Notes under the pieces: model-generated | Databases searched by the model: none | The model's input: only the letters and a program-made list of their open reading frames with translations | What the model was told of the DNA's origin: nothing | Part shown: positions 13,157-32,480 of the stretch, piece after piece | How positions within the stretch are numbered: position 1 is the stretch's first letter | How the letters are laid out: each line of letters opens with the position of its first letter | NCBI GenBank assembly: GCA_020429395.1 | Contig: JAGQLL010000016.1 | Span: 1 to 40,609 of the forward strand | Length of the DNA stretch: 40,609 nt | Direction: 5' to 3' | Source: Candidatus Dojkabacteria bacterium | GTDB lineage: Bacteria; Patescibacteriota; Dojkabacteria; B142; OLB20 | Translations under genes and position numbers: made by a program

Positions 13157-13158
13157 TT

Positions 13159-15032: not shown

Positions 15033-15120
15033 CACCTTTCATCTCCTTTCACATCCTTTACAACGACTATAAATACGTAGACATATATTCTGTATGTATA
15101 TATTTATTAATTTATAGAAA

Positions 15121-16449: not shown

Positions 16450-16853
16450 AAACAAATTATAAAAACGAACTAATTGAACAATTAAGAAAAACACCGATAA
16501 TAGAAGTCGCTTGTAAGAAAACTGGAATTGGTAGGGCTACATTCTATCGTTGGCGAAATAAGGATCCGAAATTTGCCGAAGAAACTGATTTGGCAATTCA
16601 AGAAGGCTCACAATTAGTTAATGATATGGCAGAAAGTCAATTGATCAATGCGATCAAAGATGGGAATTTAACGGGCATTATCTTTTGGCTAAAGAATCAC
16701 CATAGACAATATTCGCCTAAACTAGAGGTTACAACAAAAAATGTGGATTTACCTTTAACAGAAGATCAAAAAGAATTAATACGGAAGTCTTTATCCATGG
16801 CTTTTGCTAATGATTCGAGTATGCGTGAGGAGGTTCGAGATGACAGGAAATGA
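16446..16853 (+). CDS. Helix-turn-helix protein, probable small terminase subunit
   Basis: 135 residues. The N-terminal 45 residues form a helix-turn-helix (PIIEVACKKTGIGRATFYRW), followed by a helical oligomerisation-like part with EGSQLVNDMAESQLINAIKDGN and the IFWLKNHHR end. This arrangement is typical of small terminase-like proteins such as the phBC6A51 group. Small terminases recognise the DNA end to be packaged and hand it to the large subunit. It overlaps the methyltransferase by 4 bp and the large terminase start lies within its end, as in phage packaging operons. Confidence 0.8.
   Translation: MKTNYKNELIEQLRKTPIIEVACKKTGIGRATFYRWRNKDPKFAEETDLAIQEGSQLVNDMAESQLINAIKDGNLTGIIFWLKNHHRQYSPKLEVTTKNVDLPLTEDQKELIRKSLSMAFANDSSMREEVRDDRK
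16829..16842 (+). promoter_or_regulatory. Strong Shine-Dalgarno site fixing the large terminase start
   Basis: AGGAGG at 16829-16834 lies five bases before the ATG at 16840. The frame is open from 16804, but no ribosome site precedes that position, so 16840 is the start. A full AGGAGG is unusual in this window, where most genes lack a clear site; this could reflect the foreign origin of the terminase module. Confidence 0.75.
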
Positions 16854-18300
16854 AATCGAAGGTCTGATAACGCCTGATGTGATACTTAAAATTTTGTCAG
16901 ACCGTGTTGCTCGGATAGCTATCACAAGTCAAAGTCATTACTGGTTCTTTCACTTGTATTTCCATGAGCATGTAAAGTACCCCACAGCCCAATTTCAAAA
17001 GGAAATGTTTGTAATTACTGAAGATGACGATGTCAAAATGGCAATTATTGTGGCATTTCGTGGATCAGCAAAGTCAACAATTATGACTATGTCATTTCCA
17101 TTATGGGCTGTGTTAGGTAGACTTCAAAAGAAATGTGTTGTAATAATTTCGCAAACTCAGCAACAAGCAAGAACGCACTTTGCTAATCTTAAACGGGAAC
17201 TTGAGGCAAATGATCTACTGAGGGGTGATTTAGGTCCTTTCGAAGAAGCTTCAGATGAATGGGGATCGTATTCAATTGTGATCCCTAAGTTCAACGCACG
17301 ATTAGTAGCTGCTTCAAGCGAACAAAGCATAAGAGGTATTAGACATGGGTCACATCGCCCAGACCTAATTATTTGCGATGATGTGGAGGATATTACTTCG
17401 GTAAAAACTAAAGAAGCACGGGATCGAGCTTACACATGGCTCACAGGTGATATCTTCCCGCTTGGAGATAAGAATACTAAAACAATAATAATCGGGAACC
17501 TATTACATGAGGATTCATTATTAATGCGATTGCGAAAAAATATTGAATTGAGGAATATAGATGCGATTTATAAACAATATCCTCTCGTCTGTGAGGATAA
17601 TCGCATAATGTGGCCAGGTAAATTCACAAGCTTGGAAGAAATATTAACATTAGAAAAATCTATTGGAAATGATAAAGCATGGCAGAGAGAGTTTATGCTA
17701 AGAATTGTTCCAGAAGATGATCAATTAGTACTTCCAGAATGGATCACTTATTACGACGAACTTCCTAAAAGTACGAAAGATTACAGATACACAATAATGG
17801 CTATTGATTTAGCAATATCTACAAGTGCATCAGCCGATTTTACAGCTATCGTTACTGCTCATGTGTATGGGAATCTAGATACACTGAAGGTATACATTCT
17901 ACCTAATCCAGTCAACCGAAAAATGGATTACCCGACTACCCTAGCTGAAATTAAAGAATTATCTCGAATTAAGTATTTCGGTTACCATTTGCCCAAAGTT
18001 TTAATTGAAGAAGTTGGTTATCAAGCATCAATAATTCAGCAATTACATAAAGAGAATTTCAATGTTAAGGGATTCAAAGTACATGGAAGTGATAAGCGTG
18101 CTAGGCTTAATTCAGTCACCCCAATGATTAGATTTGCTCAAGTACTTTTCCCAAGAGATACTTGTAAAGAATTGGTTCATCAATTAGTATACTTCGGCAC
18201 TGAGAATCATGACGATTTAGTTGATGCTTTCTCAATGCTTCTATTGGAGGTGATCGCAAAAGATCAACCCCCTATAGTCTTTTATAAGGACCTATACTAG
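16840..18300 (+). CDS. Large terminase-like ATPase/nuclease
   Basis: 486 residues from the ATG with the AGGAGG site. The N-terminal packaging ATPase shows FRGSAKST (Walker A, about 74-80) and LIICDDVED (Walker B, about 176-182). The C-terminal RNase H-like nuclease shows AIDLAIS (D323), LIEEVGY and NHDDLVDAFSM near the end, so all three acidic clusters are present. In phages this motor cuts concatemers and pumps DNA into the capsid. No portal, capsid or tail gene follows; the next gene is a recombinase 34 bp away. It may belong to a reduced prophage, a satellite, or an element that reuses the motor for another purpose. Confidence 0.9.
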   Translation: MTGNEIEGLITPDVILKILSDRVARIAITSQSHYWFFHLYFHEHVKYPTAQFQKEMFVITEDDDVKMAIIVAFRGSAKSTIMTMSFPLWAVLGRLQKKCVVIISQTQQQARTHFANLKRELEANDLLRGDLGPFEEASDEWGSYSIVIPKFNARLVAASSEQSIRGIRHGSHRPDLIICDDVEDITSVKTKEARDRAYTWLTGDIFPLGDKNTKTIIIGNLLHEDSLLMRLRKNIELRNIDAIYKQYPLVCEDNRIMWPGKFTSLEEILTLEKSIGNDKAWQREFMLRIVPEDDQLVLPEWITYYDELPKSTKDYRYTIMAIDLAISTSASADFTAIVTAHVYGNLDTLKVYILPNPVNRKMDYPTTLAEIKELSRIKYFGYHLPKVLIEEVGYQASIIQQLHKENFNVKGFKVHGSDKRARLNSVTPMIRFAQVLFPRDTCKELVHQLVYFGTENHDDLVDAFSMLLLEVIAKDQPPIVFYKDLY

Positions 18301-18334
18301 ACTTCTTGAGAAGGTCGCGGTATCGTCCTTGTAG

Positions 18335-19651
18335 ATGAAAACCAACGAAAATACAATACAATACTGTCTCTATGCTCGTAAGTCCTCAGAATCAGACGAA
18401 AAACAAGCAATGAGCATTGATGGTCAGCTTAGAGAAATGGAAGAGTTGGCAAAACGAGAAAGAATTGAGGTGGTAGAAGTAATTACCGAAAGCCATTCAG
18501 CTAAAGAAACTGGGCAAAGAGATAAATTTAACTATATGGTCGAGAACATTGCCCAAGGCAAATATAACGCAATAATTACATGGGCACCTGATAGAATCTC
18601 AAGAAATGCTGGTGATTTAGGACGAATTGTGGACTTAATGGATCAAGGCAAACTGCTTTGCATTAAAACTCATTCGCAAACATTCAGTAACAACCCGAAC
18701 GAAAAGTTTTTACTAATGATTCTATGCTCGCAGGCAAAGTTGGAAAATGATAATAGAGGTATCAATGTTAAGCGAGGTCTGAAGAATAAATGTAGCATCG
18801 GCATTAGACCTGGAGTTGCTCCGATTGGTTATATAAATACAATCAAGGCTAATCGAATTGCAACAGTAGATCTAGATCCTGAGCGCGCAGAAATTATAAG
18901 AGAAATGTTTTATAAAGTAGCGAATCAAGGCTTCTCTGGTAGGATGATTAAAAGATGGTTAGATAGCGAAGGATTCAAGACCAGAAATAACTGTGGACTC
19001 ACATTAGGTAGAATTTATGCCACACTTAACAATCCTTTCTATTACGGCGAATTCAAATATGGTACTAAATGGTACAAAGGTAGTCACAAACCACTAGTTA
19101 CAAAATATATTTACGATAAGGTACAAATTCAGCTTGAGGTAGTTCCGAGACAATGGAATAAACAAGTTTTCCCCTTTAAAAAGCTATGCAAGTGTGGAAG
19201 CTGTGGCGGAAGTGTAACTGCTGAAGTTAAATATCGTAGAACTAAGAAAGGGATGATCAACACGCACATATACTATCATTGTAATCGGATTCGGGATTAT
19301 AAATGTAAAGAGCCTTATATTACAGAAGAAGAGTTGATTAAACAGCTAATAATTCTCCTTCCAGAATTAAAATTAGATACGAAATATTTATGGCAAGAAT
19401 TCGATGAAGAGATTAGAAGATTAAATCACTTGAAAGGCATAATTTATAATCACCAAGAAGCAAATATCCAGCTTACTCCACATAATATTAATATGTTGAA
19501 ATCTGATGAATTAAGTCAGGAAGAATATTTAATGCTACAAGGTTATTTCCTTCATATTCTTCAGTTTGGAACTCCAGAGGAAAGATTAAAAATATTGGCA
19601 GGTATTAATTCTAAATTGGAGCTTAAGAATCGACAGTTACTTCTCATTTAA
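18335..19651 (+). CDS. Large serine recombinase
   Basis: 438 residues. The N-terminal resolvase-type domain has YARKS with the nucleophile Ser17, SIDGQ and WAPDRISRN with the catalytic arginines. The recombinase domain (about 165-260) includes GYI-NTIKAN and LNNPFYYGEF. A zinc ribbon then carries CGSCGG and a later C-x8-C pair (HCNRIRDYKC). A short charged C-terminal region follows. Large serine recombinases integrate and excise phages and elements at short att cores. It is 34 bp downstream of the large terminase gene, and the small gap contains an imperfect inverted repeat. Its own target need not be the tRNA-Ser gene. Confidence 0.95.
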   Translation: MKTNENTIQYCLYARKSSESDEKQAMSIDGQLREMEELAKRERIEVVEVITESHSAKETGQRDKFNYMVENIAQGKYNAIITWAPDRISRNAGDLGRIVDLMDQGKLLCIKTHSQTFSNNPNEKFLLMILCSQAKLENDNRGINVKRGLKNKCSIGIRPGVAPIGYINTIKANRIATVDLDPERAEIIREMFYKVANQGFSGRMIKRWLDSEGFKTRNNCGLTLGRIYATLNNPFYYGEFKYGTKWYKGSHKPLVTKYIYDKVQIQLEVVPRQWNKQVFPFKKLCKCGSCGGSVTAEVKYRRTKKGMINTHIYYHCNRIRDYKCKEPYITEEELIKQLIILLPELKLDTKYLWQEFDEEIRRLNHLKGIIYNHQEANIQLTPHNINMLKSDELSQEEYLMLQGYFLHILQFGTPEERLKILAGINSKLELKNRQLLLI

Positions 19652-19661
19652 TACAAAGCTC

Positions 19662-20273
19662 TCAATATATGTAAAATATTCCCACTATAATTAATTTGTT
19701 TTTTGTCATGATTCTGAAATGAAATGTGTTTTCAATGGTTGCAATCATCTTCAAAATATCGTCCTCTTCGTCGATAGGATTTACAATTGAAAAACTGACA
19801 ACATAATCTTCGCTTGGTAATTTATATTTGTATTTCGGATTTCTCATTATCGGTCTCCCTGACAGATGGTAGAGAATAACACTTGATAAATTTTTCCATT
19901 CAGAATCTGATGTAAACATAGCATTATCTACCCTATGTTCATTAAAAAACATTATTAGCTCATTTCTTAAAATCTTAAATGAAAAGACACTTTTGTTAAA
20001 TGCATAGATTATTTCCTTATCTGTAACTCCCTCTTTTCCTTTATAAATTAGCCAGACATCGGAAAGTGCATCAAGAAGATCTCTACAAAAAATTGATCTG
20101 TCAACATTTATATGGCTTGACCAATCGCAAAAAAAGTATAGTAATTTATATTTTGACTTTGTTCCATTATCATCAATTACATTGCGAATGTTAGAAAACA
20201 TAGAAGAAATTGTATTGGAATCAATAGTTTTTCTCTCTACAATTTCCTTCAGGTTGTTAATATATTTACTCAT
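19662..20273 (-). CDS. Unknown protein
   Basis: 203 residues with no recognisable family. The predicted protein is mixed helical, with an internal aromatic-rich core (LLYFFCDWSSHIN) and a C-terminal beta-like stretch ending in hydrophobic residues. No signal peptide or catalytic motif is seen. It faces the recombinase gene tail to tail with 10 bp between stops. It and the next minus-strand gene lie between the recombinase and the Mrr-like nuclease, the usual location of small defence or immunity genes in islands, but nothing in the sequence proves such a role. Confidence 0.6.
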   Translation of the reverse strand: MSKYINNLKEIVERKTIDSNTISSMFSNIRNVIDDNGTKSKYKLLYFFCDWSSHINVDRSIFCRDLLDALSDVWLIYKGKEGVTDKEIIYAFNKSVFSFKILRNELIMFFNEHRVDNAMFTSDSEWKNLSSVILYHLSGRPIMRNPKYKYKLPSEDYVVSFSIVNPIDEEDDILKMIATIENTFHFRIMTKNKLIIVGIFYIY

Positions 20274-20416
20274 AATAAAGGTATTTATTAGATTCTAGAT
20301 TTATAACTCTTGGAGACAACAATAAACCCGCATTAGTATTTTTTTAACATATAATTGATACCTATGGACCAGAGCGTTAAGTGATACTTCCTTTTCAAGA
20401 GAATGTTACTTCGTAC

Positions 20417-20914
20417 TCAGTAACTAAAGGTATCTCCAGAAAGATATTTGTTCAATTTATCGTGAAGATACTTTTTATAATGCGAGAATTTCATTGCATC
20501 TCTTTCCAATTCCTCAGCAAATGCTATGTATTTATCCAATTCGAAGTAAATCGGAGGCTTTATGATTAAGTGATCCTCTTTATTCTCAGAAATATACGCT
20601 AAATCAAATTCAGATAATTCTTCTTCAGGTTCTGGTGGCATAGCAGATTGATGATCCCAAAACTTTTCCCATACAATATCATCACCAATTATTCTCGTAG
20701 AAACATATAATCCACCACATCCCATCACTTCGCAACCACAACAGATAATGCCATATGTGTTGTCTACCTGACAACTTGCCAGTAGAGCAGCAATATCATA
20801 GATATAGTCTGCTGTAAAACCTTCAAATTTTACCCTATATCCATGTTCATAATATGTATCTGGTAATATTTCATACGAAAGCTCATGGTATTTCTTTTGT
20901 GTTTTCTTATCCAT
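20417..20914 (-). CDS. Unknown cysteine-containing protein
   Basis: 165 residues, soluble and acidic. Residues about 55-75 hold a compact Cys/Gly patch (CCGCEVMGCGGLYVS) followed by IVWEKFWDH. The C-x-x-C-like clustering suggests a small metal site or a redox-sensitive loop. I know similar Gly-Cys patches in uncharacterised bacterial proteins but cannot name a family. The C-terminal half is helical and charged. It lies about 140 bp upstream of the other unknown gene on the same strand, so the two may share a transcript. Confidence 0.6.
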   Translation of the reverse strand: MDKKTQKKYHELSYEILPDTYYEHGYRVKFEGFTADYIYDIAALLASCQVDNTYGIICCGCEVMGCGGLYVSTRIIGDDIVWEKFWDHQSAMPPEPEEELSEFDLAYISENKEDHLIIKPPIYFELDKYIAFAEELERDAMKFSHYKKYLHDKLNKYLSGDTFSY

Positions 20915-21022
20915 TGGAATATGTAAATTATCATGGGAAGATTATACAACAAATCGTTAATTTTAAAGACTATACGTGAGATTGAAACCACAAGCTTTTT
21001 TCTGAACGTGAGGTTATCGTAC

Positions 21023-21691
21023 TTAAACTCCTTTTGAAAATTTACAATCTGGATAGTTGGAACAGCCTTTGAACTTACCAAATTTACCCACCTTAGGCAC
21101 TAAATGCCCCCCACAATTCGGGCATAAGTCCGAAATTGCTTCTTTAGTGTCAATATCTGTCTTGTTTTCCGCAATCTTTATTAGTTTAATAAGCTTGAAA
21201 CCGTCAATCAGTTCAATTGGTTTTCCTTCCGCAAATCGTTCAGCTTCTTGAGAGAATATATTTGTTGTAATAAATATCCCTTTCCCATTAGATAGGTTAT
21301 GTGTTAATGCTCCATAGAAATCTCTGACATCATGCACGGACACTGTGTTTGTATTATATCTTTTACACTGGATGAGTGATTTTACCCCATTCTTTTCAGC
21401 TATCACATCCACACCTCCGTCATAACTACCACCATTAATCCTAGTTGAATATCCCAATTTAGAGTATAAATGCCCAATATATTCTTCAAACTCATTTGGC
21501 TTTAACTGTTTTAACCAATCTAGCATCTGCCGCTCATTTAGCCAATGATTCTGGAATTTAAACTTTCTATTGCTAACCATAATTCTAAAACCTTTTTTAA
21601 TTAGAACTAAAATGATAGAAATAGCAATAAACCCAAACGCGACATAAAAAAGCGGGCTGAAAGCTTCAAACCATTGGAGTGTAGTTAACAT
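21023..21691 (-). CDS. Membrane-anchored Mrr-like restriction endonuclease with zinc ribbon
   Basis: 222 residues in three parts: an N-terminal membrane helix (about 12-32), an Mrr catalytic domain (about 50-160) and a C-terminal topoisomerase-type C4 zinc ribbon. The nuclease core shows ELEEYIG-like FEEYIGHLY, GGSYDGGVDVIAEKNG and LIQCKRY, giving the Asp and Gln-x-Lys of the PD-(D/E)XK site. The ribbon carries CPNCGGHLV and CSNYPDC. Mrr-family nucleases cut modified DNA; membrane anchoring is known in some members of the family and could place the enzyme where foreign DNA enters. It stands alone between unknown genes and the nucleotide cluster. Confidence 0.87.
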   Translation of the reverse strand: MLTTLQWFEAFSPLFYVAFGFIAISIILVLIKKGFRIMVSNRKFKFQNHWLNERQMLDWLKQLKPNEFEEYIGHLYSKLGYSTRINGGSYDGGVDVIAEKNGVKSLIQCKRYNTNTVSVHDVRDFYGALTHNLSNGKGIFITTNIFSQEAERFAEGKPIELIDGFKLIKLIKIAENKTDIDTKEAISDLCPNCGGHLVPKVGKFGKFKGCSNYPDCKFSKGV

Positions 21692-21880
21692 ATAAGTTCA
21701 ATAATAGTACATAGTTAAACGAATTATACTTCATATTAATAAGAATATTAACTAAACAAAATATCCTATTGTGGAAAAAAGATGACTGACTACAACTTGA
21801 TATTACTACAGATTCTATCTCAATACCTTTCAAGAAATAGTCATTCTATAGTAAAATATTGCAAATTATTAAATATTTAT

Positions 21881-22339
21881 ATGGCTGACAAATCAATTCG
21901 ACCAAGTGTTGTTATAGTTAAAGAAGGAAAAATCTTAGTTCTTAAGAGCAAGTATTCATCTGGAGAATTTTATCTTCTACCAGGTGGAAAGATTGAAAAT
22001 ATGGAAACTACTGTTGAAACTGCAATTCGTGAAGTAAAAGAAGAAACTAATTATGATATTTCAATAAAAAAACTACTATATTTACAAGAGTGGATTGATA
22101 AGATAAGAGCCAAGAATGTTATGTATATGGTATTTCTGGGTGAGATAAATAGCGGTAGCGAGACACATCTGAATGATCCATGGTTAAAGGAAGGAAAAAT
22201 TGAAGGAATTGAGTGGAAAAGTGTAGAAGAATTAAAAGACGAAGAATTTCATCCTAAGGCAATTTTACCTATGCTTGAGGAAGACATTAAGAATGAGTTT
22301 AAAAACGATGCTATCTATATTGATCCAGAAATTAGCTAG
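21881..22339 (+). CDS. Nudix hydrolase (plus-strand partner of the cluster)
   Basis: About 152 residues from the ATG at 21881 (MADKSIRPS). The frame is open to an ATG at 21782, but the extra 33 residues do not look like part of the Nudix fold and overlap promoter-like AT-rich sequence. The Nudix box is intact (GGKIENMETT-AIREVKEETNY) with the usual final Gly replaced by Asn, which is tolerated in the family. These enzymes hydrolyse nucleoside diphosphates linked to another group. Its stop codon overlaps the last codons of the convergent kinase-like gene by 4 bp, so the two ends are locked together. Confidence 0.88.
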   Translation: MADKSIRPSVVIVKEGKILVLKSKYSSGEFYLLPGGKIENMETTVETAIREVKEETNYDISIKKLLYLQEWIDKIRAKNVMYMVFLGEINSGSETHLNDPWLKEGKIEGIEWKSVEELKDEEFHPKAILPMLEEDIKNEFKNDAIYIDPEIS

Positions 22340-23091
22340 CTTATGAGAACTCGTTGTATTTCATCTGCAATAGTTTGAGGCATTGATTCACTATCCTTAT
22401 TCACATAATATGCCAAATTTATTGGTATTGTGCTGTTAGAAAATCCAATAGCATATTCACGGGCGTAATTCCTTGTCATTGTATATTCTTCTTCTACCAA
22501 TTCTCTTGGTTTTGATCTCTTTTTACTGCTATCCCCCTGTTTTCTTTCCATCAATTCATCTACAGTACCTGCCTCTATTAAGACTACAGATAGTCCGATT
22601 CCTCTCTGATCTAGTTCAAAAGCTAATCGTTGTCGCAAATCCATCCTCATACCAGGTATCCATGGCTCATTAATAGCTCTAAGGGTCTCAGAGGTGATAG
22701 TAAAGTGTGTGTCATAGATAAGTGGAGACCTAGTATGGTTTGATATTTAATCAATCAGAAGTTGAAAGGATTTATCTTCATATAATCGCATATCTCCTTT
22801 AAAGAACTCCTTTCGTTGATCGTCTGCTACTCCTGCAACTTGACAGAGTAAGTTTCCAGAATTAATTACCTTAGCACCATTAAGATTAACTAGTTCGTTA
22901 ACGATTGTGGTTTTCCCTGTACCTGAACATCCTCCTATAAGTATCATATGATTTGAATATTCTGATGAGTCAATCTCGGTCCTTTTGTAATATTGACCAA
23001 TTGAGGCATCTTGTGGAGCCCATAATGAAAACCGTTCGATATTTGAGAAGGGCGTATCGGGTTGTTCTACAATATCTTCTTTTATTGTCAT
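22336..23091 (-). pseudogene. Archaeal-type adenylate kinase-like gene broken by one in-frame TAA
   Basis: A single frame of 252 codons is interrupted only by TAA at 22749-22747 (codon 115). Before the stop is a P-loop (GGCSGTGKTT, 53-62), then VINSGN and an Asp/Arg-rich helix. After it, still in frame, comes SPLIYDTHFTITS (D127-T-H129), IEAGTVDELMERK and a C-terminal helix, as in the archaeal AdkA-type adenylate kinases. Homology on both sides shows one gene. Without readthrough the product is a fragment. TAA is one base from GAA, CAA, AAA or TTA. It is the last gene of the operon and overlaps the preceding gene by 4 bp. Confidence 0.82.
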
Positions 23092-23591
23092 TGCTCCTCT
23101 ACAATTGGGTTAACTAATTCAATAAACTCTTCACAATATTCAGCATGTGGTCTCACATGATCATAATTTCTATAGAATCTGAGATTAGGATGAACCATCT
23201 CTGCCATCGCCTGAAATGATGGTTCTCCAGTTTCTTTGCAAACAACCCTTGTGTCAAGTCCCATAATATTGCAACTCTCAAGATATGGACAAAAGTTGTG
23301 AGATTCAATTCTAATCTTAGTAGGAGAGATTCTTTCCATAACAATATCATTCGGATCCAGTTGCATATGATCAAAGTAGATTATATTAAATGCTACTTCC
23401 TCTGGTGATAATCCATTATATTTTTCAATCAAACTAGGACCATGCTCTAACATCCATTTTCTCTTCTTAGCTATTCGTTCCTGATTTACCCTCTCAATTT
23501 CCAAAGGATCATCATTCACACTACTAAGAGTCTGCATTTTCTTTTGAATTGCTGCCCATTCATCGTCTGAGTAAAGTCGTATCTCTTGCAT
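23088..23591 (-). CDS. Unknown four-cysteine protein of the nucleotide cluster
   Basis: 167 residues, no family I can name. Residues 1-60 are helical and basic/acidic. Residues 92-153 hold conserved-looking cysteines: C101 and C107 in FCPYLESCNIMG, C118 in VVCKETG, and C153 after H149 in HAEYC. Four cysteines plus a His could bind zinc or an iron-sulfur cluster. Some resemblance to the L-2-amino-thiazoline-4-carboxylate hydrolase-type proteins is possible but unsure. It sits between the kinase/ParB fusion (5 bp gap) and the broken kinase (4 bp overlap), in an operon that also encodes a radical SAM enzyme. Confidence 0.75.
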   Translation of the reverse strand: MQEIRLYSDDEWAAIQKKMQTLSSVNDDPLEIERVNQERIAKKRKWMLEHGPSLIEKYNGLSPEEVAFNIIYFDHMQLDPNDIVMERISPTKIRIESHNFCPYLESCNIMGLDTRVVCKETGEPSFQAMAEMVHPNLRFYRNYDHVRPHAEYCEEFIELVNPIVEEQ

Positions 23592-23596
23592 AGAAT

Positions 23597-24511
23597 TTAT
23601 TTAAAAGTAAAATCTGCTAACCTTGTTAAAGATAGTTGATTAAATTCATCAGCAGTCATAGGCACTCTTCTTATAAACGCCTTTGCACTTACCAGTTTAA
23701 TTAGATGATGTGCATAAGCCCTATGCCTTCCATCTTCAACCAAATCAACTGAAGAATCATCCTCTTGATTAATCATTCTATGAACAATTAATGGGCGAAC
23801 CTTTCGCTCTGCCTCAATATCTTGTACATATCTTTGTGCTGTTGATGGGTACACTTTAGCCTCCCAACTTACTTGTAGATCAGCAACCCTTACATCTTCT
23901 AATAGTAAGTCTGAGTCAAAAAGAGCCCCGTAACATTCTTCAAGAGTATCATCAATACTTTCATTTGTTGTGTCTACCACTACACATTCGCAACCTAAAC
24001 TAAACATTAATTCTCTATATCTTTGCTTCATTGTTTCATACTGATCTCTTGATTCTAAAGCGGCTTTTTCAAGACGAGATAGTTTTTTTCTAGACTGTGC
24101 TATTGTTAAAACTTCATCATACGATCTTTCAAATAACAAAATTCCTTTAGGCATTATAAAGTTCTCCTGCATTTCTTGCTGGGAAGGAAGTGGAGTACCA
24201 TTAATTATATTTCCATAATAGAGAATGCTTGGAAAATATCTATCTTGTATTACTAGATTCAGAGGAAGATTTTTACTTGTTTTATCTAAAGCATACAGAC
24301 CTTTAAAGTACATCTCTTTATAAGCTGGACTTAATTCACCAATAGAAACAGACTGTATTCCTGATTGTAATGTCGGATCCATGAACTCATGATTATACTG
24401 GCCTGGAATTGGACCATCATTAACGGATTTTTGAGAAAGTAATTTTGAGATTGTAGTTTTTCCAGTAAAATCTAACCCTTCTACTAGTGCATAAGGAACT
24501 TCATTACTCAT
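23597..24511 (-). CDS. Thymidylate kinase-like / ParB-like fusion protein
   Basis: 304 residues. Residues 1-200 resemble thymidylate kinase: VEGLDFTGKTT (P-loop, T16-T20) and QDRYFPS (D90-R91, the DR-Y motif of dTMP kinases), then a lid-like helical part. Residues about 215-285 form a ParB/sulfiredoxin-like domain with YPSTAQRYV, VRPLIVHRM and VEDGRHRAYA (D260-R264). The fusion of a nucleotide kinase to a ParB-like domain is unusual; ParB-fold domains bind CTP and some (SerK/Srx-like) act as kinases, so it could process or sense a nucleotide. It overlaps the Nudix gene by 1 bp and starts 5 bp upstream of the four-cysteine gene. Confidence 0.8.
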   Translation of the reverse strand: MSNEVPYALVEGLDFTGKTTISKLLSQKSVNDGPIPGQYNHEFMDPTLQSGIQSVSIGELSPAYKEMYFKGLYALDKTSKNLPLNLVIQDRYFPSILYYGNIINGTPLPSQQEMQENFIMPKGILLFERSYDEVLTIAQSRKKLSRLEKAALESRDQYETMKQRYRELMFSLGCECVVVDTTNESIDDTLEECYGALFDSDLLLEDVRVADLQVSWEAKVYPSTAQRYVQDIEAERKVRPLIVHRMINQEDDSSVDLVEDGRHRAYAHHLIKLVSAKAFIRRVPMTADEFNQLSLTRLADFTFK

Positions 24512-25029
24512 TATAGATTTCTTTTATAAGTTAAATTAATTTGGGACTGCGTATTATTTATTAAAAATTTTAGAATCTTATCATTTTCAAATTTCATTTT
24601 TGGCGGATTCTGTATATCACACCATTCCACATCATCTACTTCATCAGATTTAAGAACTATGTCACCCAAATAATTAATAACTTCGATAATATAGCCACTG
24701 CTTTCAAGTTTAACTATTCCCTCTACACAGTAAAGATTCTTTATCTTTGAAATTATTTTTGAATTAATAATTTGTATACCTAGCTCTTCCTTCATTTCTC
24801 GTTCCAAACCTTTCTTGTAAGATTCCTTTATTGAAATATCACCACCTGGTAAACAAAGGTTATTCTTCGACTTACTTTTCTTTCTTCTGATCAATAGTAC
24901 TTTTTCATTTTGTTTGATAATTGCTATCACATGACCTTTCAACTTTTCTCGGACGAATTTATGTCTATAATTCTCTATATCCTCCTTGTCCAGTTCAAGT
25001 GTTAATGTTATAGACTTATTTACAATCAT
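24511..25029 (-). CDS. Nudix hydrolase of the nucleotide operon
   Basis: 172 residues. The Nudix box is complete: GGDISIKESYKKGLEREMKEELGI (G-x5-E-x7-RE-x2-EE-x-G), after an IIKQNEKVLLIRRKKSK strand. The N-terminal 30 residues lie before the fold proper. The C-terminal VEWCDIQNPPK segment is a typical substrate-side strand. The enzyme would hydrolyse a nucleoside diphosphate derivative; the substrate is unknown. It overlaps radical SAM by 4 bp and the kinase/ParB fusion by 1 bp, so its level is tied to both. Confidence 0.9.
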   Translation of the reverse strand: MIVNKSITLTLELDKEDIENYRHKFVREKLKGHVIAIIKQNEKVLLIRRKKSKSKNNLCLPGGDISIKESYKKGLEREMKEELGIQIINSKIISKIKNLYCVEGIVKLESSGYIIEVINYLGDIVLKSDEVDDVEWCDIQNPPKMKFENDKILKFLINNTQSQINLTYKRNL

Positions 25030-26207
25030 TTAAAATATCCTTCCTTTGCTTCGTTATCTAATGCATTTCGATTACAACACTTGCAGAGTAACCCTTCAAA
25101 ATCATGACTTTGATATACATCTTGTAATTTACCAGCTGCTTCTATTAAATAGCCCACACCAGGAGCTTTTTTCCCTTGATAAATTGATCCAGGTGTTGGA
25201 TGAAATACGTTAAAAGCAGGAGCTACACCTCGGGCTGCTAGATAATCCCATCCTTCAAACATACTTTCAAGAGGTTCTAAGCCACCAACAAAAGTGGTAT
25301 ATGTACCATTTTTAAATACACCTGCTGCGTACTCTAAAGCGGCTATCATATTATCTCTTCCATAAGATTCATCCTTACCTGGACATACTTCCTTAAATAG
25401 TGCTGGATCCCAAACCTCAAGGTTAAATGAAATATGGTTCATTCCTGCTGCATATGCTTCATCAATTAAAGATAGATCTCTTGGAGGCATAGTTATTAAA
25501 TTTCCATCGATTCTTCTACCAAGTGTATCTGATGCTGCCTTAACAGCCTCGATATACTCTCTAAACTCATCATCATGATTCCATATACTTCCACCTGAAA
25601 ATTGAATGTGGTGAAGGTGATCACCTGTTTCTTGGATTGTTGATAATAGAGCCCTTACCATATCAGAGTTCTTATATTGCTCAGTCTCTCCGTATCGATT
25701 TTGAGTAGCCTTTAATGAACAGAATTTACAAGGTTGTGCACCTTCCCAATATGTACAAGTTTCTCGCATAAAAAACGAAACAGCTCCCATTCCGAGGGTA
25801 ACCCCTATTCTTTTTGCAGGGATTCCTTTAACTACCTCTCTATCATAATATTCAGGTCTGTCATGAAAACCAACACCTGTAATTCTTTTCCCATCGTAAT
25901 TTAGGGCAAACCCTTCATCCTCAGCAGCAATTTCCCATGGAGATTCATCTCTCCAATGTGTTCCTACTACAATATCATCTCCAAGTATTAATTCTTGAGG
26001 TACAGTTACTATTTTTGTGAAATCAGAACTATTATAGCTTCTAATTTTCTCTTTTACCTTTGACCCCACTGGTAATAAAGCACTTTCATGAAATCGCATG
26101 CCTTGCGAGAGAAGAGCAAGCTTAACATGAGCTGGATTAGAGAGATCGAGCTTTTCTACATCTGGGTCTTTTTCATACCCACCAGTTATCTCAATTAAAT
26201 CTACCAT
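25026..26207 (-). CDS. Radical SAM enzyme with CX8CX2C cluster motif
   Basis: 393 residues. After a 150-residue N-terminal extension comes the iron-sulfur motif CTYWEGAQPCKFC (C151, C160, C163), spaced CX8CX2C instead of the usual CX3CX2C. A GGSIW SAM-binding segment follows (FSGGS), then the barrel strands with ISFNLEVWD and GRDNMIAALEYA, and the C-terminal VFHPTPGS. The C-terminus adds a CKCC tetrad-like motif (GLLCKCCNRN). Radical SAM enzymes carry out methylation, thiolation, isomerisation or ring chemistry. It lies 2 bp from the HAD gene and overlaps the Nudix gene by 4 bp, placing it at the heart of the operon. Confidence 0.87.
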   Translation of the reverse strand: MVDLIEITGGYEKDPDVEKLDLSNPAHVKLALLSQGMRFHESALLPVGSKVKEKIRSYNSSDFTKIVTVPQELILGDDIVVGTHWRDESPWEIAAEDEGFALNYDGKRITGVGFHDRPEYYDREVVKGIPAKRIGVTLGMGAVSFFMRETCTYWEGAQPCKFCSLKATQNRYGETEQYKNSDMVRALLSTIQETGDHLHHIQFSGGSIWNHDDEFREYIEAVKAASDTLGRRIDGNLITMPPRDLSLIDEAYAAGMNHISFNLEVWDPALFKEVCPGKDESYGRDNMIAALEYAAGVFKNGTYTTFVGGLEPLESMFEGWDYLAARGVAPAFNVFHPTPGSIYQGKKAPGVGYLIEAAGKLQDVYQSHDFEGLLCKCCNRNALDNEAKEGYFK

Positions 26208-26209
26208 TG

Positions 26210-26923
26210 TTAAAAGTTAATAAAGTTATTTAAAATATATTCAGGAACTTCTGATAATACTGTTCCTGTAGAATCTTCCTCATCTAATTGTTTGATTTTG
26301 ATTACCTTGTCAATACCTGCCATCCTTGCTCCCTCAATGTCATTCTTTTCATCATTCCCAATAAATAGACATTCATTTTTTTTAATATGATATTTACTCA
26401 AAACAAGATCAAAAAATTTCGCATTTGGCTTTCTTACGCCAAAATCAACTGAAAAACCATAAAAATTGAAGTATTTTAAAATATCAAACTGAATCATGGC
26501 TGCGATTGAATACTGAGAATCTATTCCGAAAGGCGAGTTCGACAGTATTCCTAATTTATATGTTTTGCTTAGTTTTGATAGTACCTCATGTGTATTAGGG
26601 TCTAAATAAAGGGAATCAAAGTACTTTGAGGAAAAAATATGAATAATGTCTTTTGTGATTTTTTTATTTAAACCATAGATTTCAGAAAGACTAGAACCTA
26701 AATTATCTATATGAATCTCAATATCATTCTTATACTTTTTAATTCTGAGTTTATTAATTTCATTTTTAATATCTTTAAATTTAATTTGGCTCACACCTCT
26801 CTTATTCAGGTAGTCCAACACCTCATTAATACAATAATTAGATTCATTCTCTATATCTCCTGTAAGAGCTCTATCTCTAAAGTATAATAATGTCTCACCT
26901 AAATCAAAAATGATAGTTTTCAT
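26210..26923 (-). CDS. HAD-superfamily hydrolase
   Basis: 237 residues. Motif I is IIFDLGETLLY, where the second Asp of DxDxT is Gly, a variant common in uncharacterised HAD proteins. Motif II is the Ser in GILSNSP, motif III the Lys in GVRKPNAKFF, and motif IV FIGNDEKNDIEGARMAG. The helical cap between motifs I and II (about 20-100) marks a subfamily I protein. It would act on a phosphate ester, plausibly a nucleotide or sugar phosphate, but the loss of the acid/base Asp makes activity less certain. It overlaps the phosphoribosyltransferase-like gene by 4 bp. Confidence 0.88.
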   Translation of the reverse strand: MKTIIFDLGETLLYFRDRALTGDIENESNYCINEVLDYLNKRGVSQIKFKDIKNEINKLRIKKYKNDIEIHIDNLGSSLSEIYGLNKKITKDIIHIFSSKYFDSLYLDPNTHEVLSKLSKTYKLGILSNSPFGIDSQYSIAAMIQFDILKYFNFYGFSVDFGVRKPNAKFFDLVLSKYHIKKNECLFIGNDEKNDIEGARMAGIDKVIKIKQLDEEDSTGTVLSEVPEYILNNFINF

Positions 26924-27837
26924 AAATTTAGTGATTCTCTAATTAAATTAAAATACCAACCCTCTTTATTGAAATTTACATCCTTACTATTGAACAATTT
27001 ATTGTTAATTATGAAGTAGTCACTTAATCGAATACTAGACTCTGTCTTTGGAAAAAGAGCAACAGTCTTAGAGTCAGCAATGAAATCTTTTAGATATTTC
27101 AAAGTATTACCAGTATATGACCTGTCAATAATTATTGGCCTATCTATATCTTCCTTTGTTAGGTTTGAAATGAAATTTTTATCTAGTGGTGCTTTCCTGT
27201 ATTGTTCATATGGATCGTGTGAATGATGATATTCAGTTAAGCATAAATTTTTGTTTTTTGTGGTATTGTAAAAACCGCGGAGAAAAGGTATCCCTGAATG
27301 TGCGACAAAAATATAACTATTTCCAAGTTCAGCAACTTCGTTCCAGACAGATCCTTCACGTGCATAATTTCCTGAATAAAGTTTAAATTTATCTTCAAAA
27401 CCTTTTCTAGGTCCATACTTACTGTAATCTTTTTTAAATGTTTCGAGGATTGATGAATTTTTACATTCAACAACTTTCATTAGGTTAAGTTTTTGCTTTT
27501 GTTTCTTTATGCCTAATTCGCTTATTGCTTCGAATAGGATCTGATTTCTAATTGATCTAAGTATTGTTATATCATTTGAGACGAGGCGTATCTCAAATTC
27601 TGTGTGCTCAACTATTTCTACTGAAGCAAAATCAAATTCTTTTAGCAGTCGATTAATATTGGTTTGAATCCACACCCATATTTTAAAAATATCTTCTATA
27701 TCAACTCTGTCTAATTCTTGTGGTATGTCAGATATATCAATGATACTCAACTCTGGTAATCTATTCCCTTGAGAATCATAGAAACCAAATCTATTGTGTA
27801 CAGCACTCCATACTTTTTGAATCTGTTCTGACATCAT
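26920..27837 (-). CDS. Phosphoribosyltransferase-like protein
   Basis: 305 residues. The C-terminal half contains two loops of the PRTase fold: IFVAHSGIPFLRGFYN (177-191), like the pyrophosphate loop, and PIIIDRSYTGNTLKYLKDFI (234-253), like the PRPP-binding loop with the usual acidic pair reduced to D-R. The N-terminal 170 residues match nothing I know and may bind the base or a partner. If active, it would move a ribose-phosphate to or from a base. It overlaps the adenylate-kinase-like and HAD genes by 4 bp each, so the three are translated in strict order. Confidence 0.72.
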   Translation of the reverse strand: MMSEQIQKVWSAVHNRFGFYDSQGNRLPELSIIDISDIPQELDRVDIEDIFKIWVWIQTNINRLLKEFDFASVEIVEHTEFEIRLVSNDITILRSIRNQILFEAISELGIKKQKQKLNLMKVVECKNSSILETFKKDYSKYGPRKGFEDKFKLYSGNYAREGSVWNEVAELGNSYIFVAHSGIPFLRGFYNTTKNKNLCLTEYHHSHDPYEQYRKAPLDKNFISNLTKEDIDRPIIIDRSYTGNTLKYLKDFIADSKTVALFPKTESSIRLSDYFIINNKLFNSKDVNFNKEGWYFNLIRESLNL

Positions 27838-28481
27838 TTGTTATTAATAAAATCAACGGGTAGTTCTTCTCCAACTCGTTTTATTTCTATTATCCGACTT
27901 ACATCAACTGCTAACTCCATCGGTTCTCTTGACTCTGTATTTAAAGTAACCAGTCCTTCACCAGAATTATAATAATCCACTAATTCATTATTGGTGATTC
28001 TAAAACCATCAAGTAAATTCAGACCATTAAGTCCATCAGGTCTATTCTCAAGCTTATGCCTTTGTTCGATTCTTGTTACTAAAGTTTTATCGTCACAAAT
28101 TAAATGTATATTTAACATTCTGATATTTAAACCAAGCTCCCTAACCCTTGTGTCAAAATCTTTTGCTTGGCGAATTGTCTTTATCGATCCTGGAAGAATA
28201 AATGAACTAGATTTGTCTAAATTGAAGGTAAGTTCTCCAACAAGAATACTGGTCATTAAGTCATCTGGTAAATGTTCACCATTTCTATAATTGGTTTCGA
28301 AAGGTTTTAAGATTGAAGAGTAACGCTGAGAGTAAGGATTAGGAATATTTTCAGTAAAGCATGCTCTTAATATTTCGCCAGTTGAAATGACATGAAAATC
28401 AAACTCAGAAGCTAATTGATGGGCAAGTGTGGATTTTCCTACTCCAGGTAATCCAAATAAATTTATAATAATTGGTTGCAT
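27834..28481 (-). CDS. Adenylate kinase-like nucleotide kinase with altered substrate loop
   Basis: 215 residues, normal adenylate kinase length. The P-loop GLPGVGKST (10-18) and the ISTGEILR segment (33-39) match adenylate kinase. However, the NMP-binding FILDGFPRT is replaced by FILPGSIKT (94-102), which loses the Asp, Phe-Pro and Arg that contact the substrate phosphate. The R-x-DG end and the YYNSGEGL C-terminus are kept. It may therefore phosphorylate a different nucleotide or none. It is the first gene of the eight-gene operon, directly behind the palindromic promoter, and ends in a 4 bp overlap. Confidence 0.85.
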   Translation of the reverse strand: MQPIIINLFGLPGVGKSTLAHQLASEFDFHVISTGEILRACFTENIPNPYSQRYSSILKPFETNYRNGEHLPDDLMTSILVGELTFNLDKSSSFILPGSIKTIRQAKDFDTRVRELGLNIRMLNIHLICDDKTLVTRIEQRHKLENRPDGLNGLNLLDGFRITNNELVDYYNSGEGLVTLNTESREPMELAVDVSRIIEIKRVGEELPVDFINNK

Positions 28482-28493
28482 GGTTTATATTAA

Positions 28494-28517
28494 CTATGCA
28501 CACGTAAGTGTGCATAG
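28494..28517. promoter_or_regulatory. Perfect 10+10 bp palindrome, probable operator
   Basis: CTATGCACAC (28494-28503) and its exact reverse complement (28508-28517) are separated by 4 bases. The palindrome begins right after the -10 box of the minus-strand promoter and covers the expected transcription start, 13 bp before the first gene. A repressor bound here would block the operon. As RNA it would also make a 5' hairpin. The adjacent ribbon-helix-helix protein is the obvious candidate binder. Confidence 0.85.
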
Positions 28518-28546
28518 ATTATATTATACTGTCAGAATACAGTCAA
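28518..28546 (-). promoter_or_regulatory. Near-consensus promoter of the nucleotide operon
   Basis: On the minus strand, TTGACT (28546-28541) is followed by exactly 17 bases and TATAAT (28523-28518). A second overlapping TATAAT begins five bases earlier but would give a 12-base spacer, so the downstream one is preferred. This is the best sigma70-type promoter in the window. Such a strong promoter usually needs repression, which the adjoining palindrome would supply. Confidence 0.8.
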
Positions 28547-28566
28547 CACTAGGAGTATGCTATAAT
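28528..28566 (+). promoter_or_regulatory. Regulator promoter with a second inverted repeat
   Basis: TGCTATAAT (28558-28566) is a complete extended -10 box on the plus strand, 32 bp before the regulator ATG; no good -35 is seen. ACTGT-CAGAAT-ACAGT (28528-28543) is a 5+5 bp inverted repeat between the two divergent promoters and overlaps the other promoter's spacer. It could be a second site through which the regulator controls both directions. Confidence 0.5.
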
Positions 28567-28598
28567 TTGATATATAGAAAAGTTATTTGATTAATAGT

Positions 28599-29159
28599 AT
28601 GAAGGTATTTCTTTCAGCAATTATTGAAGATAAAAAAAGGGTGGGTATCTTTAACTCCTTAAAAGAAGAAATTAGCCAAAATCATAGCTTAGAAGCTAGA
28701 TCTAAAAAGCAATCTACCCAATCAGAATCAACAAAGTCAGGTATTACAAAGAAAGCAATAATCACCTCCGATTGTTGCATATTCGAAGTAACAACTCAGG
28801 ATATTGACTTAGGATATCAGATATACCTATCATTGCAAAAAAGTAAGCCAACTTTAGTCCTGATGGATAAAAAATTCGGAGATCCTTCAGATATATTCAT
28901 TGGATTTGACTCAAAATATCTTATCGCTAAAAATTATTCTAATAATCACGACTTGAGACTAATTGTCTCAAAATTTCTCAAAGAAAGTAATATAGAAAGT
29001 CGAGTTCGTTTTCACCTAGTGGTCGATAAGAGTCTAGATGATTATATTGAATGGGCAAGTACTGAATATAAGATAACTAAAACAGATGTTATAAAAAACT
29101 CACTACAAAATACCTTAGCAAACGACAGAAAGTATCGATTACTCAATGATAATAGCTAA
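28599..29159 (+). CDS. Deoxyribosyltransferase-like sensor fused to ribbon-helix-helix DNA-binding domain
   Basis: 186 residues from the ATG at 28599; an upstream TTG in frame is less likely. Residues 1-128 resemble nucleoside 2-deoxyribosyltransferase/DNPH1 proteins: MKVFLSAII start, CCIFEVTTQD (59-68), DLGYQIYLSLQKSKPTLVL (70-88). The catalytic Glu expected at the 'GxE' position is Gln (Q74), so it probably binds but does not cleave a nucleotide. Residues about 135-181 look like a ribbon-helix-helix domain (RVRFHLVVDKSL strand, then two helices). I infer a nucleotide-responsive repressor of the divergent operon through the palindrome at 28494-28517. Confidence 0.7.
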   Translation: MKVFLSAIIEDKKRVGIFNSLKEEISQNHSLEARSKKQSTQSESTKSGITKKAIITSDCCIFEVTTQDIDLGYQIYLSLQKSKPTLVLMDKKFGDPSDIFIGFDSKYLIAKNYSNNHDLRLIVSKFLKESNIESRVRFHLVVDKSLDDYIEWASTEYKITKTDVIKNSLQNTLANDRKYRLLNDNS

Positions 29160-29756: not shown

Positions 29757-29844
29757 TGGCGGAGAGGACAGGATTCGAACCTGCGGTCCCTTGCGGAACA
29801 CTGGTTTTCAAGACCAGCTCATTAGACCACTCTGACACCTCTCC
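29757..29844 (-). tRNA. tRNA-Ser (anticodon UGA), CCA encoded
   Basis: 88 bases on the minus strand. The acceptor stem is GGAGAGG/CCTCTCC (7 bp), the anticodon stem CTGGT/ACCAG encloses the loop CTTGAAA with anticodon TGA (UCA codons), the variable arm is long (TTCC-GCAA-GGGA) as in class II tRNAs, and the T arm carries GTTCGAAT. The discriminator is G and CCA is encoded (29759-29757). Its 3' end and its 5' half are duplicated elsewhere in the window, which points to use as an integration site. It appears intact and functional. Confidence 0.97.
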
Positions 29845-29904
29845 ATATTAAATTGTAACACTTTGGTTTTTCCCTCTCCGCTATGCTACGAGGGACTAAT
29901 TCGC

Positions 29905-29941: not shown

Positions 29942-29977
29942 CAAGACCAGCTCATTAGACCACTCTGACACCTCTCC
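29942..29977 (-). pseudogene. Duplicated 5' half of tRNA-Ser
   Basis: 36 bases identical to 29809-29844: the 5' acceptor strand, D arm and anticodon 5' strand, ending inside the anticodon loop. Similarity continues past the 5' end (ATATTA against AATATTA), so upstream sequence was copied too. It is not a functional tRNA. A break in the anticodon loop is a common crossover position for tRNA-directed integrases. With the 3'-end copy at 5899-5915 it could be the other half of an original gene that the island split. Confidence 0.85.
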
Positions 29978-30030
29978 AATATTATTCTTTTTTTAAAGAT
30001 TCAAAGTCTACTCCAAAGTGACTCTGCTTG

Positions 30031-30219: not shown

Positions 30220-32244
30220 CTATAAAAGATAAATCTGTTTCCTTAAGTATGCGTGTCTCAGTCTCATTATTAAATCACCAAGATTTGGATCAATAATACC
30301 CATCTTGCTAAGTCTTTCATCAATAATCCTCTCTATTACTCCCGGGTCATTTTGATCTGCGACCATTTGAGAACTTGTGCTCCAGTCTTTTCCAGGCATG
30401 TATTCGTGTTCTAGATACAATATCATTTCCTTTATATCTCTTTCACTCAGTAAATTCTCGAATTCACCCCAATTCCCCATTTTATTACTCATATAATATA
30501 GCAACTTGTCTTTTCCATTTTCTAGTTTATTAATTTCTATTCTAAGTGTTTCAACATTTCTCAAAGCATTTATTCCTTCAATAGCCCCAATTGCTGAAGG
30601 ATGTGTTGATTGGTAATCAAGCAATAGTCTCTGATTGACATAATTTGTAAGTGTCTCTAGATTATTCAATTTTGCTCCATTAAATTCTCCTAGAAGTGCA
30701 CTGTTCTGTTCTAAAAGCCTTTGATCTAAGTTTGTAGCATATTCAGTTTCTGGATCTATATCTAGTCCAACCACCTCATTCAACCACAGAAATACATCTG
30801 TATATCCATCAATTGTAGCTAGATTTGCAGCTTTATATATTATTTCCTGCATATCAACTGAATATTTATACAACTCCCTATCCGGAGTCATACTCCTACC
30901 TGTGTATTCAATTCTTGTGTTATTTGTTTTTCCTTTGGCAGGTTCTGGATCACCATTCCTATTGCTCTCTAAAATAAGTAGTAATTTCTCTAAACCAATA
31001 GAAACCCGAAGTCTTGCATCTCCGTGAGTGTTTGGCATTACTAACTCTTGGATTAGAGTTGCTAAGCCTGCACGATCTGGATGTATAGATTGTCCTTCCA
31101 GCATCCTACATACAATCGTATCTCTAAGATTCCTATCAGGTTCAAGCATATCAGCGGGAGAGGCAGTAAGCATAACTTGGTTTAGAACATGTCTTGCATC
31201 AGCAACTTTCTTTCCTTCAATAAGTACGTCCTGTCCGAAAGTATGCCCTCCACTATAAGTTAATCCGTCTACCAACGTTCTGAAATAGATCATCAAGTTA
31301 GCAGTACTCTTTAAAATATTTGGAGATACAAATCCAGTTTTTTTATCAGCTTCTACATTAATTGATACGTGTCCTGCGTTCATTAACCAATGACTTAAAT
31401 CCTTTACTTGATCTAACATTCCTTCTAATCCTCCTTCAAATCCATTTCCTTTAGCAATTCTATCCCAGTTTTCTTTTGTCTCTGCTGGAACAAGTTTTAA
31501 ATTTTCTTCCATCATAATGGCAAGTTGATGGGAAAGAAAATCTACATATACAGCATATTTTGAAGGATCTCCGATTTTCAACGATCTAATTTGTTGTATT
31601 CTAAGGTCTGGAGATGTACCTGCTAGGTTAACCAAGGCGTCTTTGTTTTCGGCTTCTACCATCACTTCCCTAAGAAGTTCATGCGTCGCTAGCATCAATT
31701 CTGCAGTATCAGAGACTGGTGGATCTATCCCTAGCTCTCTCTGACATGCCATTAATTCATAAATCCCGTTTACAACTATTCCAAGTACTTCATCATTAAA
31801 GTTTTCAACCTTGTTTTCTAAAGAAAGGTTAAACTCAATTTCCGGTCCTATTGTTTTAGTTTCTGGATCAAGATTATGTTTTATATTCCAATCAGCTAAT
31901 TCTTTTTCTTTGTCAGTAACCTCAGAGGCACTATCAGTTGGGTTCAACATAAGTACAGAGACCTCACTTTCTTGGAAAGCTTCTGGATCTTTTTGTACAT
32001 TTACTTCAACCACTTCACCGGAGGCATCTTTTTTGGTTACTCTCCTCCATTTTCTATCTGGGACTAGGACAGTATACTCAGTTCCTGCAAGTACACCTTC
32101 ACCTTCTCTAACTATTAATGACAATACAGCCGAACCGTTAAGATTGCCATCAAGGTCTCTACCAGGTGTGGTTTGTACGGTACCAAATTCTGAAAGTGTA
32201 TCTATAAGTTCTCTGTAAGTCATAAGATCACCTTCTTTTTTCAT
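30220..32244 (-). CDS. Large protein, possible glutamate-cysteine ligase-like fold
   Basis: About 674 residues. The frame is open from 32337, but a terminator hairpin lies inside that extension. The ATG at 32244 follows GGAG with a 5-base spacer; the ATG at 32223 after AAGGTGATC is also credible. Weak signs of the GCS/glutamine-synthetase catalytic fold are GPEIEFNLS near the N-terminal third, NAGHVSINVEADK, SGGHTFGQD and NNTRIEYTGRSMTPD, in the order of metal- and ATP-binding strands. The N-terminal 100 residues and the helical C-terminal 250 have no known match. It is soluble. No glutathione-pathway neighbour is present, so the substrate is open. Confidence 0.6.
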   Translation of the reverse strand: MKKEGDLMTYRELIDTLSEFGTVQTTPGRDLDGNLNGSAVLSLIVREGEGVLAGTEYTVLVPDRKWRRVTKKDASGEVVEVNVQKDPEAFQESEVSVLMLNPTDSASEVTDKEKELADWNIKHNLDPETKTIGPEIEFNLSLENKVENFNDEVLGIVVNGIYELMACQRELGIDPPVSDTAELMLATHELLREVMVEAENKDALVNLAGTSPDLRIQQIRSLKIGDPSKYAVYVDFLSHQLAIMMEENLKLVPAETKENWDRIAKGNGFEGGLEGMLDQVKDLSHWLMNAGHVSINVEADKKTGFVSPNILKSTANLMIYFRTLVDGLTYSGGHTFGQDVLIEGKKVADARHVLNQVMLTASPADMLEPDRNLRDTIVCRMLEGQSIHPDRAGLATLIQELVMPNTHGDARLRVSIGLEKLLLILESNRNGDPEPAKGKTNNTRIEYTGRSMTPDRELYKYSVDMQEIIYKAANLATIDGYTDVFLWLNEVVGLDIDPETEYATNLDQRLLEQNSALLGEFNGAKLNNLETLTNYVNQRLLLDYQSTHPSAIGAIEGINALRNVETLRIEINKLENGKDKLLYYMSNKMGNWGEFENLLSERDIKEMILYLEHEYMPGKDWSTSSQMVADQNDPGVIERIIDERLSKMGIIDPNLGDLIMRLRHAYLRKQIYLL

Positions 32245-32300
32245 TGTCTCTCCATTTAGTAGTGGAGTGGTTCCTTCTGTGCTCATTTGATTATAAAAAC

Positions 32301-32321
32301 AAAAAAACCGCCTTTCGGCGG
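32301..32321 (-). terminator. Intrinsic terminator upstream of the large gene
   Basis: On the minus strand, CCGCC-GAAA-GGCGG (32321-32308) is followed by seven T (32307-32301). It lies 160 bp after the aquaporin stop and 57 bp before the preferred start of the large gene. It would end the M20-aquaporin transcript, or act as an attenuator in the large gene's leader. Confidence 0.87.
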
Positions 32322-32480
32322 GATAAATAATTTTCATTCATATCATCCTACGCCGAATTAACGGTTGGTAAAGAGGATAATAATAAATGAACTGTTGTAA
32401 TACATTTTTTTAGTTTAATCAAAAACTTTTGGAATTCTAGCACGATATATCTAATCTGACAATAAAAGATTTTTCTTTTT

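Follow-up and report, generated by a model that had tools for sequence, protein, structure and literature searches.

A tightly packed radical SAM-containing nucleotide gene cluster in Candidatus Dojkabacteria and its predicted DNPH1-like/RHH regulator

A compact operon of nucleotide-related genes

We analyzed a 40,609-nucleotide stretch of Candidatus Dojkabacteria bacterium (GenBank: JAGQLL010000016.1; hereinafter the window), a contig of a draft genome of 1.07 Mb that is 88.5% complete, for an operon of nucleotide-related genes surrounding a radical S-adenosylmethionine (SAM) enzyme and for the putative regulator encoded divergently from it. Eight genes on the minus strand occupy 28481 to 22336, and their successive junctions measure -4, -4, +2, -4, -1, +5, and -4 nucleotides; as these span only -4 to +5 nucleotides, the eight constitute one tightly packed unit. 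Together with the two plus-strand genes that flank them, they are:

28587..29159, plus strand: divergent regulator with a DNPH1/nucleoside-2-deoxyribosyltransferase-like domain and an RHH (ribbon-helix-helix)-like tail; probable start ATG 28599
27834..28481, minus strand: adenylate-kinase-like nucleoside monophosphate (NMP) kinase, the first operon gene; P-loop GLPGVGKS; PF00406, e-value 5.4e-16; TIGR01351, 6.7e-19, below the curated cut-off
26920..27837, minus strand: putative phosphoribosyltransferase (PRTase); motif IIIDRSYTGNTL; no Pfam match
26210..26923, minus strand: HAD-IA phosphatase, CTE7/YjjG-like; PF13419, 5e-15; TIGR02253, 2.6e-25, and TIGR02254, 4.6e-18, both below cut-off; homologue in the related locus L005
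25026..26207, minus strand: radical SAM enzyme of the core clade described below, CX8CX2C; NF045502, 3.4e-86
24511..25029, minus strand: Nudix hydrolase; PF00293, 4.1e-14
23597..24511, minus strand: dTMP-kinase-like protein with a possible ParB-like tail (EDGRHR); PF02223, 1.4e-9; TIGR00041, 3e-13; PF24392, 0.025, below threshold
23088..23591, minus strand: orphan 167-residue protein, earlier noted for its four cysteines; no significant family
22336..23091, minus strand: archaeal-type adenylate kinase (AdkA-like) with an in-frame TAA at 22747-22749; NF003122, 5.4e-10 if read through the stop
21782..22339, plus strand: convergent Nudix hydrolase overlapping the operon end by 4 nucleotides; PF00293, 7.4e-15

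The first-pass annotation, made from the sequence without database searches, had grouped these genes as one unit; every gene that it named was recovered where it had been placed, and its account of the locus holds with three corrections. Profile searches support its adenylate kinase, HAD, radical SAM, thymidylate kinase, and AdkA-type kinase calls, as well as both Nudix calls. Of the proposed dTMP-kinase/ParB fusion the kinase part stands (PF02223), but the ParB-like tail (PF24392) does not reach significance. The archaeal-type adenylate kinase has its AdkA-type match, yet the gene is split by a single in-frame TAA, which suggests a pseudogene or a sequence error; a strain variant is the further alternative. 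The gene called PRTase-like does encode a loop resembling that which binds phosphoribosyl pyrophosphate (PRPP), but profile, fold, and pairwise comparisons failed to confirm the assignment (see below). The orphan at 23088-23591 has no relative in 86 genomes of the class, viral contigs, or plasmids, and the dTMP-kinase-like protein has none in viral contigs, plasmids, or phages.

The radical SAM enzyme belongs to a small clade spread across phyla

With 289.4 bits against NF045502, a variant radical SAM domain family with a curated cut-off of 125, the enzyme is a member of that family. Its AlphaFold2 (AF2) model (pLDDT 87.6) matches lipoyl synthase, HydE, ThiH, and others (e-value ~1e-6; TM 0.4-0.6), and because these matches cover the radical SAM fold at large, the structure names no substrate. 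Relatives turned up in 4 of the 380 phylum-wide genomes sampled and in no viral contigs; a single scan of genome contigs yielded 15 related loci. A tree of 21 proteins places the window enzyme in a seven-member clade (support 100/98) with those of Dojkabacteria Bin_125 (L005/L013), a genome of the same order as the window genome, an Agrobacterium pusense plasmid (L008), Pseudomonas sp. GM21 (L014), Burkholderia and Paraburkholderia (L015, L016), and Pyxidicoccus (L023). A C-terminal RNxxDxE motif is common to all seven. Matches on Klebsiella plasmids are annotated as MSMEG_0568, the Nit1C type, and are not of this core clade.

The genomic neighborhoods of the clade repeatedly combine the radical SAM gene with genes for nucleotide enzymes. 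In Bin_125 the order is HAD-CYTH-PRTase-like-radical SAM, with overlapping genes, and the HAD protein aligns with that of the window (3e-10). The Pseudomonas locus encodes, in order, a MATE exporter, a PRTase-like protein, an IMPase-family phosphatase, the radical SAM enzyme, and a dTMP-kinase-like protein; this locus (L014:244-6581) looks like a small secreted-nucleoside cluster. In Burkholderia (L015) and Pyxidicoccus the radical SAM gene is followed by one for a xanthine-type PRTase and then a GT2 glycosyltransferase, and in L016 it adjoins a PRTase of the same type. The Agrobacterium plasmid carries a B12 radical SAM gene, the clade member, and a Nudix gene in a row. Thus, a proven or putative PRTase lies beside the radical SAM gene in six of the seven core-clade members, and Nudix, dTMP-kinase-like, or phosphatase genes also recur near it, often as non-orthologous replacements. 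The first-pass annotation had made its reading depend on this gathering not being unique to the window genome; that it recurs with PRTase or other nucleotide genes in the core-clade loci of unrelated bacteria indicates that it is not, although the set is very rare and three of its genes were found nowhere else.

Separately, the 379-residue protein also encoded in L014:244-6581 appeared by eye to be nucleotidyltransferase-like and has no significant family. Further, near 10001-12900 of L015, L016, and L023, the radical SAM proteins of Burkholderia/Paraburkholderia and Pyxidicoccus are nearly identical, as their short tree branches show, which argues that this radical SAM-PRTase cassette has moved between phyla.

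A putative PRTase with a PRPP-loop-like motif

The PRTase-like protein shares 28-30% identity with its homologue in Bin_125 and 24% with that in Pseudomonas, both of which adjoin the radical SAM gene, and all three conserve an IID-x-x-x-TG-type loop that resembles the PRPP loop. Its AF2 model is of low confidence (pLDDT 54.6) and gave no significant Foldseek match, hhalign against a true PRTase returned a probability of 0.5%, and pairwise scores were no better than those of shuffled sequences; we therefore lowered the call to putative. Within 0.93 Mb of retrieved sequence, the strict PRPP motif is confined to L015, L016, and L023. The window protein has no relative in viral contigs and no match in plasmids or phages.

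The predicted divergent regulator combines a degenerate DNPH1-like domain with a putative RHH-like tail

Judging by its relatives, the regulator most likely begins at ATG 28599 and not at TTG 28587. Searched alone, the protein of 28587-29159 has no Pfam hit. A family profile of the window protein and 22 relatives from the class recovered DNPH1/Rcl structures in the PDB (e-value 2.6e-16; profile positions 3-145, nearly the whole enzyme), and PF05014 (Nuc_deoxyrib_tr) is detectable in 17 of the 23 members, which establishes via the family profile a homologous DNPH1/nucleoside 2-deoxyribosyltransferase (NDT) domain. Human DNPH1 relies on Asp80 and Glu104 for catalysis, and the inactivating E104Q mutant was crystallized to trap substrate (PMC10603095). 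At the column of the catalytic Glu, the window regulator and nine other members have Gln; none of the 23 keeps the catalytic Asp in its aligned column, three have an Asp one position off, and the window protein reads Ile-Thr-Lys around that column. Compared with DNPH1/Rcl, the family profile matches the enzyme over nearly its full length, but the window protein has lost the catalytic pair and has a putative RHH-like tail added. With Glu replaced by Gln and the aligned Asp lost, we infer that the domain binds a nucleotide without cleaving it and serves as a sensor rather than an enzyme.

Relatives of this regulator occur in 33 of the 86 class genomes; the window genome itself has three copies. 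Across 20 neighborhoods, Nudix, MazG-like, Ham1-like, or Maf genes occupy 9 of 40 positions adjacent to a regulator versus 6 of 167 distal ones (Fisher p=3e-4), and Nudix genes alone 5 of 40 versus 3 of 167 (p=0.008), p values that are a guide only, as the classes were picked post hoc, in part by eye, from loci that are related to one another. The closest relatives of the window regulator (39, 38, 36, and 33% identity) all belong to the Nudix-linked group. A second set of regulators recurs in one setting, close to two conserved genes and, in some genomes, a uracil-DNA glycosylase gene (L095, L098, L101; relatives L088-L107).

Two candidate control elements lie upstream of the operon:

28518..28546, minus strand: predicted sigma-70-type operon promoter, TTGACT-17-TATAAT, 11/12 consensus positions; best of 31 sites in the region
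28494..28517, no strand: 24-bp palindrome CTATGCACACGTAAGTGTGCATAG, candidate operator; 10-bp perfect arms; equaled by 0 of 100 shuffles

Promoter-like sites in the region are no more numerous than in shuffled sequence. The palindrome lies directly downstream of the -10 element, over the expected transcription start, a placement that suits a repressor site. On the plus strand it is also recognized as a terminator-like hairpin, so it may instead act at the RNA level. The first-pass annotation had guessed at a nucleotide-sensing repressor, and this is its best-supported part, given the degenerate DNPH1-like domain, the RHH-like tail, and the operator-like palindrome nearby.

Comparison with known radical SAM and nucleotide systems

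The closest known logic is that of the tubercidin pathway. The Streptomyces tubercidin (tub) and toyocamycin pathways use a radical SAM enzyme, a PRPP-dependent PRTase, and a phosphate-removing hydrolase (the Nudix protein TubG). The tub cluster includes a transporter gene as well as genes for GTP cyclohydrolase I, CPH4 synthase, GMP reductase, and a UbiD decarboxylase (PMC6112128). The window operon resembles them in its radical SAM enzyme, its putative PRTase (by motif), and its phosphate-removing hydrolase, and the tub transporter has a counterpart in the MATE exporter of the GM21 relative; it differs in having none of the last four enzymes and in adding NMP kinases. A 7-deazapurine pathway was rejected, as Pfam and NCBIfam searches found no GTP cyclohydrolase I, QueD-type CPH4 synthase, or QueE-type CDG synthase among the operon genes; of the other enzymes of such a set, the dephosphorylating HAD and Nudix proteins are present, and a PRTase is suggested by its motif.

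The radical SAM enzyme is of the same broad family as NitD/MSMEG_0568 of the Nit1C cluster (PMC6368324), with the CX8CX2C and PGK motifs in common. It is not NitD itself: it reaches 73.9 bits (1e-20) against TIGR04043, whose cut-off is 303.7, and lies outside the tree group that contains NitD; further, the Nit1C neighbors nitrilase, AIR-synthase-like, GNAT, glycosyltransferase, and flavin oxidoreductase are absent from the window operon. Prokaryotic viperin operons likewise place a radical SAM gene beside NMP-kinase-like genes, but viperins carry CX3CX2C, unlike the CX8CX2C of the window enzyme, which scores 12.6 bits (e-value 0.055) against NF038283, with a cut-off of 180, and is accordingly no viperin. 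In the nucleoside-like metabolite module of the Ter systems, a PRTase and HAD enzymes are predicted to make a nucleoside signal (PMC7824862); the same enzyme classes occur in the window (the PRTase being putative), but the window genes searched include no Ter genes and have a radical SAM enzyme and kinases instead. The literature searched, which took in few subscription papers, offered no account of a pathway combining these genes, in agreement with the first-pass annotation, and nothing relevant on an NDT-RHH fusion. The locus appears to be a variant of a known radical SAM and PRTase nucleotide pathway, with a regulator architecture that is apparently undescribed.

A possible unusual-nucleotide pathway

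We consider it an even chance that this operon was acquired laterally, makes or processes an unusual nucleotide, and is freed from repression by a (deoxy)nucleotide ligand. The radical SAM enzyme would alter a nucleobase or nucleotide, the PRTase-like protein would couple a base to ribose-5-phosphate, and the NMP kinases, Nudix, and HAD phosphatase would set the phosphorylation state of the product. The divergent protein would be a dimeric repressor, whose DNPH1-like half would bind a (deoxy)nucleoside monophosphate without cleavage and whose RHH-like tail would occupy the 24-bp palindrome over the transcription start until the ligand frees it. The packing of the genes, the recurrence of the radical SAM enzyme amid nucleotide enzymes, and the sensor-like regulator favor the unusual-nucleotide unit that had been proposed, although its PRTase stands at motif level and three genes were found in no related locus. 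Nothing in the analysis points to the DNA/RNA modification, signaling, or defense that had been suggested as its purpose.

Several observations weigh against this interpretation. The PRTase is putative, named from its motif; the substrate of the radical SAM enzyme cannot be read from its sequence, and the gene occurs in just 2 of the 86 class genomes. The dTMP-kinase/ParB protein, the four-Cys protein, and the archaeal-type kinase were found in no related locus, and the last operon gene carries a stop codon. Further, between the dTMP-kinase-like proteins of the window and GM21 the likeness is limited to the P-loop region, and the Nudix proteins of the window and Agrobacterium do not align, so the recurrence is in part one of activity classes and not of one inherited operon. 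On the regulatory side, the signal for the RHH-like tail is weak (a single one of the 23 members matches RHH_3, at 0.0082; TTHA0139, e-value 0.057), and the palindrome is not conserved before related regulators, which have other or no clear palindromes.

More tentatively, and with some doubt on our part, the locus might represent a new nucleotide or nucleoside pathway founded on an uncharacterized radical SAM clade that occurs alongside two seemingly unrelated kinds of PRTase across several phyla, under a new regulator, used widely in Dojkabacteria for nucleotide-pool genes, that joins a dead DNPH1-like sensor to an RHH tail. If so, an ultra-small candidate-phylum bacterium would hold a dedicated pathway for an unusual nucleotide, and the radical SAM clade would suggest that the culturable Pseudomonas, Burkholderia, and Pyxidicoccus perform the same chemistry. 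Separately, the DNPH1-like/RHH proteins would be a new kind of nucleotide-responsive regulator, present in over a third of the class genomes searched, in which an enzyme fold became a sensor via the same Glu-to-Gln change that crystallographers use for trapping substrate.

Genomic setting and alternative explanations

Mobile and defense genes, among them one for an HNH protein, lie beside the operon within 7440-21691:

8833-14298: type I restriction system
15121-16449: ParB-like/N4-N6 methylase fusion
16446-18300: terminase-like genes
18335-19651: serine recombinase
21023-21691: Mrr-like nuclease with a zinc ribbon

On the other side, a 705-residue protein (30220-32337) matches nothing in Pfam or NCBIfam, and no relative of it was found in three same-family genomes. 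A 37-nucleotide exact repeat (29809-29845 and 29942-29978) corresponds to one end of a tRNA-Ser gene (29757-29844, minus strand), a trace of the kind that integration into tRNA genes produces.

The main alternative, which we regard as rather unlikely, is a salvage or pool-cleaning operon, in which the Nudix, HAD, kinase, and PRTase proteins clear or recycle damaged or foreign nucleotides and the radical SAM enzyme performs a repair step, with no new end product. The window HAD has its nearest counterparts in the CTE7 subfamily and among the YjjG nucleotidases, YjjG being a non-canonical pyrimidine nucleotidase, and relatives of the regulator adjoin Nudix, MazG, Ham1, and Maf genes. Sanitizing the nucleotide pool is also what DNPH1 itself does (PMC10603095). 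Salvage leaves unexplained, however, both the three NMP kinases and the presence of the radical SAM and PRTase genes in clusters with a MATE exporter (L014) or a glycosyltransferase (L015/L023).

The nearby type I restriction system, Mrr-like nuclease, terminase-like genes, and serine recombinase would suit a nucleotide-based defense or stress-signaling module on a mobile element, like the predicted metabolite branch of the Ter systems, which are described with PRTases and HAD phosphoesterases making nucleoside signals (PMC7824862). Yet we saw no Ter protein and no effector-like gene in the operon, and PADLOC matched only generic P-loop and Nudix families, with no defining component and no convincing match to a defense family; the defense role raised in the first-pass annotation is thus not borne out, and we give such a module very little credence. 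The same mobile-element genes, together with the in-frame stop in the last gene, the three orphan genes, and the great rarity of the set in relatives, would also accord with a decaying or chance assemblage of nucleotide genes in a mobile island, sharing no joint pathway. This we think improbable: start/stop overlaps run all along the operon, a palindrome lies at its promoter, and the pairing of radical SAM and PRTase genes is repeated in other phyla.

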